From Talaromyces rugulosus (Eukaryota; Ascomycota; Eurotiomycetes; Eurotiales; Trichocomaceae): a DNA stretch of 64,000 nt. A model generated the notes under the pieces. It saw only the letters and a program-made list of their open reading frames with translations. It had not been told where the DNA came from and did not search any database. Both the position numbers and the translations under genes were made by a program. Position 1 is the first letter of the stretch; each line of letters starts with the position of its first letter. This document shows positions 19,423 through 62,931 of this stretch, in pieces. Location: contig NC_049562.1 in assembly GCF_013368755.1 (NCBI RefSeq), positions 5,456,001 through 5,520,000 on the forward strand, read 5' to 3'.

Positions 19423-19562
19423 TCCCCGTTGATCTAGTGGTATGTCTCCCTTTTCTAATTCGCTTCCAACTCAGCTAATATCCCGAAGGTCATGATTTCC
19501 GCTTGTCATTTGCTTGAAAGTAAAACAAGCGCGGGAGACCGGGATGATTCCCCGACGAGGAG
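19423..19562 (+). pseudogene. Decayed tRNA-Asp(GTC) gene with D-loop insert and anticodon intron
   Basis: The 5' acceptor strand TCCCCGT (19423-19429) faces ACGAGGA with one C-A mismatch. Inside the D-loop, after CTAGTG, a 49-nt insert (19440-19488) begins GTATGT, contains CAGCTAATA and ends AAG. The anticodon arm TCCGC-TTGTCA ... C-GCGGG gives anticodon GTC and is split after base 37 by a 21-nt intron. The T-arm has lost two bases and the TTC of the T-loop (GGGATGATTCC instead of GGGGTTCGATTCC), destroying the B box, so this copy is probably inactive. A T7 stretch follows as a Pol III terminator. It is homologous to the copy at 21978-22124. Confidence 0.75.
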
Positions 19563-21977: not shown

Positions 21978-22124
21978 TCCTTGTTGGTCTAGTGGTATGT
22001 TTCTCTCATCTAATTGGTTCTCAACATCTCAACTAATACACCATTCAGGTTATGATTTCCGCTTGTCATTTACTAAAAAGTAAAACAAGCGCGGGAGACC
22101 GGGGTTCGATTCCCCGACAGGGAG
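21978..22124 (+). tRNA. tRNA-Asp(GTC) with two inserts (D-loop and anticodon loop)
   Basis: The acceptor strands TCCTTGT (21978-21984) and ACAGGGA (22117-22123) pair with one G-U, and the discriminator is G. The A box TGGTCTAGTGG and B box GGTTCGATTCC are intact. After CTAGTG a 54-nt insert (21995-22048) starts GTATGT, has CAACTAATA 14 nt before its end and ends TCAG; this is the structure of a spliceosomal intron. The anticodon stem TCCGC/GCGGG and loop TTGTCA-C give anticodon GTC, with a second, conventional 21-nt intron after base 37 (22069-22089). Removing both inserts leaves exactly 72 nt, a standard tRNA-Asp. A T7 terminator follows at about 22131. Whether the first insert is removed in the cell is unknown. 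Confidence 0.85.
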
Positions 22125-22164
22125 CTCTAATTTTTTTGAATATTTTTTTGTTTTAAATAAAAAA

Positions 22165-46800: not shown

Positions 46801-48470
46801 ATGGCCCCGCAACAATTGGTCCCTCAGACCGAAAACATTGCAGACGTCTATGCGACTGACGATGTCTCGGCCAAGGCCGTTGCCCCTGAGATCAAGGCTC
46901 GCTGGCAGAACCTGGTCAGCCAATTCGTCCAGGTGTACGGTGAAAAGCCCGACTTTGTTGCGCGAAGCCCCGGCCGTGTAAACATCATTGGCGAGCACAT
47001 CGACTACAACCTCTACGACGTCCTGCCCACCGCGGTCAGCGTCGATGTCATCATTGCTGTCAAGGTTGTCCCGACCGAAGGCTCCGAGGCAACGGTCAAG
47101 ATATCAAACGTGAATCCCGAAAAGTTCCCGTCGCGCGAGTTCACCATCCCCTCGGACAAGGATATCGAGATTGACCCCAAGAAGCACGAATGGATCAACT
47201 ACTTCAAGGCCGGTGTGCTTGGCGCAATGAAGTTCCTTCGAAAGGAAACCCCTTCCATCAAGCCTGTCAGTATCGAAGTTCTGATGGACGGCAATGTTCC
47301 CCCTGGTGGAGGAATTTCTAGCAGTGCCGCATTTGTCTGTGCCAGTGCTTTGGCCGTCATGAAGGCCAACGACCACCATGTCTCAAAGCAGGATCTTTTG
47401 GACCTGGCTGTTGTTTCGGAACGTTCTGTGGGCGTCTACTCTGGAGGGTACGTTGCAATTAAATGCATATTCGTTCCAATTGGCTAACTCGTTTACAGAA
47501 TGGACCAGGCCGCCTCTGTTTTCTCGGAGCGAGGATATCTTCTATACACAAAGTTCTTCCCCAAATTCTTCGTCGAACATGTCCCAGTGCCTGAAGCCGA
47601 CGAGGAAGTTACTTTCCTGGTGGCCCAGAGTTTCATTACCTCCAACAAGGCCGAGACCGGCCCCCGTCATTACAATCTCCGCGTTGCTGAATGCACATTA
47701 GCCGCCGTCGTGCTGGCCAAACTGAACGGCGTCACCCTGGAGAAGGACAACAGTTCTCTGGGCTACAGCCTGCGCAACTTTCACGAGGAGTTTATTCGCA
47801 AACAGGGCCGTCTCCAAGATCCATTGGAGTCTCAGCTTGACACAGTCATCCAGACCACTAAAGAGCTATTCCCTCAGGAGCAGGGATATACGCGAGAAGA
47901 GATTGCTAAATTCCTCGACATCACCGTCCCAGAGCTGGAGTCGCGATTCCTTTCCTCGTTCCCTGTTCAGGCCGAACGATTCCTGCTCCGTCAACGCGCT
48001 CTACACTGCTTCAGCGAGGCTCGTCGTGTGCTTGACTTCAAGGCTTGCCTCTCTCAGGCAAAGAAGCTTGACGAAACGCGCCTTCACTACCTCGGCAAAC
48101 TCCTCAACGAAACCCAGGAGTCTTGCCGCGTCGACTACGACTGCAGTTGCCCTGAAGTCGACCAGATTTGCGAAATCGCCCGTCGCGCTGGTGCTTGGGG
48201 CAGCAGACTTACCGGCGCCGGCTGGGGAGGCTGCACAGTACACATGCTTCCCAAGTCCAAGGTGGAGGCTGTCAGCCAAGCTATTAAAGACGAGTACTAT
48301 TCAAAGAAATTCCCGGATCTTTCTCAGGAGAAGCTGGCTCAGGCTATTGTCATTAGCAAGCCTTCCAATGGCTCTTTCTTGTAAGACTCCCTTACTACTA
48401 ATATTTATCCGGTATGCAATCGCTGACATATTCTCCACCCAGGGTTCACGGTGCCGCTTTAGAATTTTAA
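46801..48470 (+). CDS. GAL1: Galactokinase
   Basis: Three exons (46801-47447, 47499-48380, 48443-48470) give 518 aa. It phosphorylates galactose to galactose-1-phosphate, the first Leloir step, in the cytosol. The galactose-recognition motif is RSPGRVNIIGEHIDYNLYDV; the GHMP ATP-binding loop is GNVPPGGGISSSAAF; the third motif is SRLTGAGWGGCTVHMLP. The split after SGG and before MDQAASVFSERG is closed by a 51-nt intron with GTACGT donor and TTTACAG acceptor. A final 28-nt coding exon adds VHGAALEF. Length fits fungal galactokinases. In yeast the near-identical Gal3 is a sensor; here the catalytic motifs are intact. Confidence 0.97.
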
Positions 48471-62550: not shown

Positions 62551-62655
62551 GGGTCGCTGGGCTAGTGGTATGCTTCATCCTTCGGGAAACCATTTTTCCA
62601 AGTAGTAAAACTACTTTCCTGGATGAGGTCCGGGGTTCGATTCCCCGGTGACCCC
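62551..62655 (+). tRNA. tRNA-Pro(CGG) with anticodon intron
   Basis: Acceptor strands GGGTCGC and GTGACCC pair fully (one G-U). The anticodon stem is CATCC/GGATG with loop TTCGGG-T, anticodon CGG. A 33-nt intron (62587-62619) follows base 37. The T-arm is CGGGGTTCGATTCCCCG. Mature length is 72 nt and the discriminator is C. A TTTTT terminator follows at about 62660. There is no D-loop insert. Confidence 0.92.
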
Positions 62656-62822
62656 CTATATTTTTGCCACCCGGTCTCGTTGGCAGAGAGAGAATCTTTC
62701 TTGAAAAAGGAAAAAAAAAAAGTGTGGTTTTTTTGCCACAGAAAACCGTCGGACGAAAAAAAAAAGCTAAGAACTTAGCACTAAAAACACTGACTAGTCC
62801 AAGTAGGTAGTAAAAAAGGTAG

Positions 62823-62931
62823 GGGCTCTCCGGGGAATCGAACCCCGGACCTCATCGTAGGTGGTCGTATGACCAGGGTTAACCTGGTCTGAACCCAAAC
62901 GATGAATCATAATCCACTAGACCAGAGAGCC
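62823..62931 (-). tRNA. tRNA-Pro(TGG) with anticodon intron
   Basis: On the minus strand acceptor GGCTCTC pairs with GAGAGCC. The anticodon stem is CATCG/CGATG with loop TTTGGG, anticodon TGG. An intron of about 35 nt lies at 62859-62893. The T-arm is identical to that of the other tRNA-Pro. A T6 terminator follows at about 62812-62817. It is convergent with the CGG gene, 167 bp apart. Confidence 0.92.

Follow-up and report, generated by a model that had tools for sequence, protein, structure and literature searches.

In the textbook view, nuclear tRNA introns are the business of the tRNA splicing endonuclease, whereas spliceosomal introns belong to transcripts of mRNA type. U6 of S. pombe, an RNA made by RNA polymerase III (Pol III), contains an mRNA-type intron (PMC10484740, excerpt). 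The rRNA genes of lichen fungi have spliceosomal introns as well, and yeast splices one of these, 57 bp long, after its insertion into the yeast rDNA (PMC8527467, excerpt). For tRNA genes, introns away from position 37/38, including in the D-arm and several to a gene, are described in Cyanidioschyzon merolae and in nucleomorphs (excerpts of PMC3978253 and PMC4090602). As far as these excerpts go, the ectopic introns of C. merolae are of the bulge-helix-bulge kind, and those of G. theta are 3 to 24 nt long, many of them without a defined motif.

Here we describe inserts in tRNA genes of the fungus Talaromyces rugulosus, starting from a stretch of 64,000 nucleotides of its genome (C2:5456001-5520000, referred to below as the window). 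Like the S. pombe U6 intron (PMC10484740, excerpt), they are introns of spliceosomal type in RNA genes transcribed, in our case presumably, by Pol III. However, U6 is one snRNA and a spliceosome component in its own right, whereas seven tRNA isoacceptors are affected by the T. rugulosus inserts. The two U6 genes of T. rugulosus (L079, C5:3041853-3041952, minus strand; L080, C4:2469452-2469551, plus strand) match Rfam end to end and are intronless. The lichen rRNA introns are likewise short, spliceosomal, and located in a noncoding gene that is not transcribed by Pol II (PMC8527467, excerpt), but they belong to Pol I rRNA genes of lichen fungi, whereas the present inserts belong to tRNA genes of a nonlichen member of the Eurotiales. 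In contrast to the bulge-helix-bulge introns of C. merolae, the T. rugulosus inserts carry donor, branch, and acceptor motifs, and in contrast to the very short introns of G. theta they are 49 to 58 nt long and have such motifs (both comparisons drawn from excerpts). They also differ from canonical anticodon introns, which sit after base 37, in lying elsewhere and in carrying splice motifs.

In the literature searched, of which coverage was partial, we found no earlier description of nuclear tRNA genes with spliceosomal introns. Judged by their sequence, the inserts belong to an established type of intron, but in a class of genes for which we know of no such report. We put the probability at roughly 85% that the inserts, of which 12 nuclear tRNA genes of T. 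rugulosus contain at least 16, are true spliceosomal introns of U2 type and are removed by the spliceosome.

An interrupted tRNA-Asp gene

A tRNA-Asp(GTC) gene occupies positions 21978-22124 of the window on the plus strand, measuring 147 nt in the DNA and 72 nt once both of its introns are removed. Exon 1 (21978..21994, plus strand) holds mature nt 1-17, that is, the 5' strand of the acceptor stem, the D-stem, and the start of the D-loop. It is followed by a 54-nt D-loop intron of spliceosomal type (21995..22048, plus strand) with a GTATGT donor and a CAG acceptor. A branch-site-like CTAAT within CAACTAATA lies at 22033..22037 on the plus strand, and its putative branch A (22036) is 12 nt before the last intron base. 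Exon 2 (22049..22068, plus strand; mature nt 18-37) contains the anticodon GTC and precedes a canonical 21-nt anticodon intron after base 37 (22069..22089, plus strand), whose last five bases, ACAAG, are the complement of a CTTGT around the anticodon. Exon 3 (22090..22124, plus strand; mature nt 38-72) completes the molecule with the 3' strand of the anticodon stem, the variable loop, the T-arm, and the 3' strand of the acceptor stem. The A-box-like TGGTCTAGTGG (21985..21995, plus strand) is unbroken in the DNA because its final G is supplied by the first base of the D-loop intron. The B-box GGTTCGATTCC lies at 22103..22113 on the plus strand, and a seven-T run resembling a Pol III terminator is present downstream of the gene, on the same strand, at 22131..22137.

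The preliminary description of this locus, in which removing a 54-nt D-loop insert and a 21-nt anticodon intron leaves a perfect 72-nt tRNA-Asp, agrees with our reading base for base: once spliced, the sequence is called tRNA-Asp(gtc) by ARAGORN and forms 20/20 stem pairs in a cloverleaf scorer. The spliced D-arm is identical to that of one uninterrupted Asp copy and one base off that of the other. In the DNA as it stands, neither ARAGORN at default settings nor Rfam at gathering scores reports any tRNA in the window. A tRNA finder with introns allowed had been suggested as a check, and with introns of up to 150 nt ARAGORN does detect a tRNA here, but it misreads the unspliced gene as tRNA-Pyl and names Asp only for the spliced form.

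The window also contains a convergent pair of tRNA-Pro genes (CGG, 62551-62656, plus strand; TGG, 62822-62931, minus strand) with anticodon introns of 33 and 35 nt, respectively, both of which are missed by the default ARAGORN scan.

A similarity search of the genome with the tRNA-Asp sequence gave five matches, L001 (the window gene) to L005. The second locus, L002, is also in the window (19423..19562, plus strand) and combines a 49-nt GT-AG insert in the D-loop (19440..19488, plus strand; GTATGT...AGCTAATAT...AAG) with a 21-nt anticodon intron. With a T-arm two bases short and its B-box lost, L002 is in all likelihood a pseudogene. L003 (C3, minus strand) has a 55-nt D-loop insert, an anticodon intron, and a further 57-nt insert in the variable loop (GTGAGA...TACTAATAT...AAG). 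It looks partly decayed: in the anticodon stem T faces T, and the T-loop motif has a T for C; compared with L001, one stem pair is broken, one is kept, and none is compensatory. L004 and L005 stand in tandem on the minus strand (C3:2623610-2623702 and C3:2623790-2623882) and have an anticodon intron only. In L004 the fourth pair of the acceptor stem is a C-A mismatch; L005 has identical acceptor strands, and the decayed L002 shares the mismatch. Since L004 and L005 are uninterrupted, the supply of tRNA-Asp does not depend on the D-loop insert. The concern that the window gene might be a solitary relic, with many intact Asp genes elsewhere, is not borne out, as three of the five Asp loci found carry an insert, counting the likely pseudogene and the decayed-looking copy.

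Census of interrupted tRNA genes in T. rugulosus

Standard finders miss tRNA genes broken by such introns. We therefore searched the genome with patterns combining a B-box and a T-run and by similarity to known copies, and then read short regions around the matches. Sixty-six tRNA genes were read, 54 of them recognised by ARAGORN (from 56 distinct calls over all loci and the window) and 12 of them interrupted by a total of 16 inserts of spliceosomal type. The interrupted genes are three of Asp, two of Leu(AAG) (L085 and L100), two of Ser(GCT) (L090 and L101), two of initiator Met (L102 and L103), and one each of elongator Met (L108), Leu(CAA) (L105), and Ile(TAT) (L111). The reading proposed for the window gene, a GT-AG intron of apparently spliceosomal type alongside a normal anticodon intron, holds and gains strength from 15 more such inserts in 11 other tRNA genes. 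Eight of the 12 came from patterns requiring both B-box and TTTT, so these two features count as independent evidence only in L002, L003, L100, and L101, which were found by similarity.

Several ARAGORN calls were revised. The call at L086 was dropped from the census as spurious, and that at L103 was dropped from the recognised set as a misreading of the interrupted initiator Met gene. L066 and L087, which ARAGORN calls Leu(caa), were read by judgement as Lys(CTT), their acceptor, D-arm, and T-arm matching those of L071. L020 and L030, both among the 54 recognised genes, look atypical.

The census is incomplete. Phe, His, Trp, and Val(AAC) are among the isoacceptors not located, so uninterrupted copies could have been missed. 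A genome search with nine approximate fungal-type tRNA sequences (665 bases) returned no candidates and is uninformative. Three places with an initiator-type B-box were matched by pattern, two of which were read, and a further 20 B-box sites that were read contained one tRNA gene (L120), of normal structure. An intron-blind finder asking for 7/7 acceptor pairs, 5/5 T-stem pairs, and T8..A14 gave three real genes, all in the window, versus a mean of 0.05 per shuffle in 20 dinucleotide shuffles (154,330 bases), and it gave no tRNA gene in the 30 loci L036-L065; it is insensitive to decayed genes, L002 and L003 being absent from its list.

Two further observations were made in the regions read. 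The Lys(TTT) gene at L109 (C6:3133570-3133850) and the Ser(CGA) gene at L074 have unusually long anticodon introns of 52 nt, which do not start with GT. Among the listed matches, GGTTCGAACCCCACTGGGAACCC followed by TTTT occurs in at least 15 exact copies and at least 4 near variants and may be a dispersed repeat; one example, L099 (C4:3359165-3359450), was checked for a tRNA, and none was found.

Splice signals of the inserts

All 16 inserts are 49 to 58 nt long (mean, 53.3 nt), begin with GTNNG, and end with AG. Each contains the branch motif CTRAY (CTAAY in 15 and CTGAC in 1), with the branch A 9 to 14 nt before the last base. They are located after mature nt 15, 17, 24-27, 32, or 45. The full feature set (GTNNG...CTRAY, with the branch A 9 to 14 nt from the last base...AG) occurs in 69 of 3,049,400 background segments of 49 to 58 nt, a frequency of 2.3e-5, the background being the window plus 30 other loci, read on both strands. 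In length the inserts resemble the mRNA introns: the median is 53.5 nt for 10 candidates in the window, which were picked by the same motifs and may include false ones. One intron candidate of 51 nt, built like the tRNA introns (GTACGT...GCTAAC...CAG; 47448-47498 of the window, plus strand), splits a galactokinase-like gene.

With the inserts excised, ARAGORN calls a tRNA in 12/12 genes, in Ile after a one-base shift of a boundary and in L002 with its damaged T-arm. Deletion scans covered every insert but that of Asp_L002, 15 in all; start, end, and size of the deletion were varied, giving 1,100 to 1,400 deletions per insert. Excision from GT to AG gave the best tRNA score for 11 of the 15. 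For the other four (Asp_L003 twice, the first intron of Ser_L101, and Ile, for which the anticodon-intron boundary used was one base off), between 1 and 16 other deletions scored slightly higher. When only deletions beginning with GT, with G at +5, and ending with AG are compared, the proposed excision alone is best in 15/15 scans. Ties are frequent for D-loop and variable-loop inserts (e.g., 39 deletions for the window gene), and because so many deletions tie, the cloverleaf alone leaves these junctions unfixed. It is the GTNNG, CTRAY, and AG motifs that decide the assignment of the inserts as spliceosomal.

Canonical anticodon introns are present in 10 of the 12 interrupted genes after base 37 (serial number 37 or 38), with lengths of 19 to 36 nt (25 nt in Ile). 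None of the seven anticodon introns of 35 to 52 nt that were examined for hidden GT-AG introns begins with GT.

Functional state of the interrupted genes

The inserts might be dead cargo, the interrupted loci being pseudogenes and the tRNAs being supplied by uninterrupted genes that we have not seen. According to reviews, when a eukaryotic tRNA gene has an insert in an arm, it is mostly a single member of a large synonymous set and is regarded as a pseudogene; nucleomorphs and C. merolae are the exceptions (excerpts of PMC4090602 and PMC3978253). The Asp family fits this pattern, with two uninterrupted genes, a decayed L002, and a partly decayed L003, and our 66 genes can be set against 124 tRNA genes reported for a related species (PMC11675779, excerpt). 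However, the other families argue against it, and we regard this explanation as unlikely. Initiator Met (two copies), Ser(GCT) (two), Leu(AAG) (two), elongator Met, Ile(TAT), and Leu(CAA) (one each) were found only in interrupted form, and the 54 ARAGORN-recognised genes include no uninterrupted gene with anticodon CAT, GCT, AAG, or TAT. A similarity search for Leu and Ser gave seven matches, all inside the four interrupted loci L085, L100, L090, and L101; the 25-nt first Leu exon went unreported in this search even where it is exact, so that short pieces may escape it, but a full-length uninterrupted copy should still match.

The way in which the copies differ from each other also argues against dead cargo. 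Seven stem pairs differ within the paralogue pairs of Leu(AAG), Ser(GCT), and initiator Met, of which six are compensatory changes, one is a one-sided change that still pairs, and none is broken. Across five alignments of paralogous introns, in which Asp_L001 was used twice and the signal columns were selected by motif, the splice-signal columns are identical in 55/60 cases versus 136/226 for the other columns. Copies share the position of the intron, after nt 25 in Leu(AAG), 26 in Ser(GCT), 27 in initiator Met, and 17 in Asp. Such same-site introns, the bodies of which are identical in as few as 33/56 and 34/63 columns, point to gains that predate the divergence of the gene copies.

In the cloverleaf, every pair forms in 8 of the 12 interrupted genes. 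One T-T pair is present in elongator Met, as is usual for this tRNA, and another in Asp_L003, and the cloverleaf of Asp_L002 fails at the T-arm. An intact tRNA could arise from these genes only if the inserts are taken out.

Proposed splicing route

Under the spliceosomal reading, the interrupted genes would be transcribed, most likely by Pol III, as precursors of 123 to 210 nt. The spliceosome would recognise GTNNG, CTRAY, and AG and remove the 49- to 58-nt introns, the tRNA splicing endonuclease and ligase would remove the anticodon introns (19 to 36 nt, where present), and RNase P and tRNase Z would trim the ends. In yeast, contacts of the tRNA endonuclease probably involve the D-arm as well as the acceptor stem (PMC3978253, excerpt). 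The enzyme presumably measures these two elements in their mature form, so the spliceosome should come first, and D-arm introns would be spliced before the endonuclease step.

The mRNA type of the introns might instead suggest that RNA polymerase II makes capped precursors resembling mRNA, which would pass through the spliceosome before being cut to tRNAs, and in Ser_L101 the A-box is indeed split by the first intron. We consider this very unlikely. The A-box is unbroken in 9 of the 12 genes by the consensus used here, the exceptions being L101 and the base-changed L002 and L003, and TTTT begins within 20 nt of the tRNA end in 12/12, a feature that the search pattern required for eight of them and that is independent of it in four. 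Pol III transcription of genes with mRNA-type introns has the precedent already invoked in the preliminary description, U6, which the S. pombe gene upholds (PMC10484740, excerpt). A further alternative, in which the GT-AG look is incidental and a bulge-helix-bulge or other local fold guides the tRNA splicing endonuclease or a different RNase to the inserts, has parallels in the handling of introns outside 37/38 in C. merolae and Archaea and in the ectopic introns of nucleomorphs (excerpts of PMC3978253 and PMC4090602), but we give it almost no credence, as a strict bulge-helix-bulge is found in 0/16 inserts (a weak test that leaves room for relaxed forms, because the canonical anticodon introns fail it too, at 0/10) and the uniform length of 49 to 58 nt, the +5 G, and the branch motif in 16/16 inserts would be unexpected for such introns.

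Implications for tRNA processing in T. rugulosus

In T. rugulosus the spliceosome is likely to be an essential tRNA-processing enzyme on which initiator Met, elongator Met, Ser(GCT), Leu(AAG), Leu(CAA), and Ile(TAT) depend. Most of these tRNAs would need two unrelated splicing machines in sequence, and mRNA-type introns would have spread through nuclear tRNA genes. Interrupted genes of this kind escape standard tRNA finders, so wherever an isoacceptor seems to be lacking from another genome, a second look is worthwhile. The order and place of pre-tRNA processing would become testable, and the entry of spliceosomal introns into new genes could be studied in a natural setting in T. rugulosus. 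If true, the reading would join the mRNA-splicing and tRNA-processing pathways and make translation initiation directly dependent on mRNA splicing.
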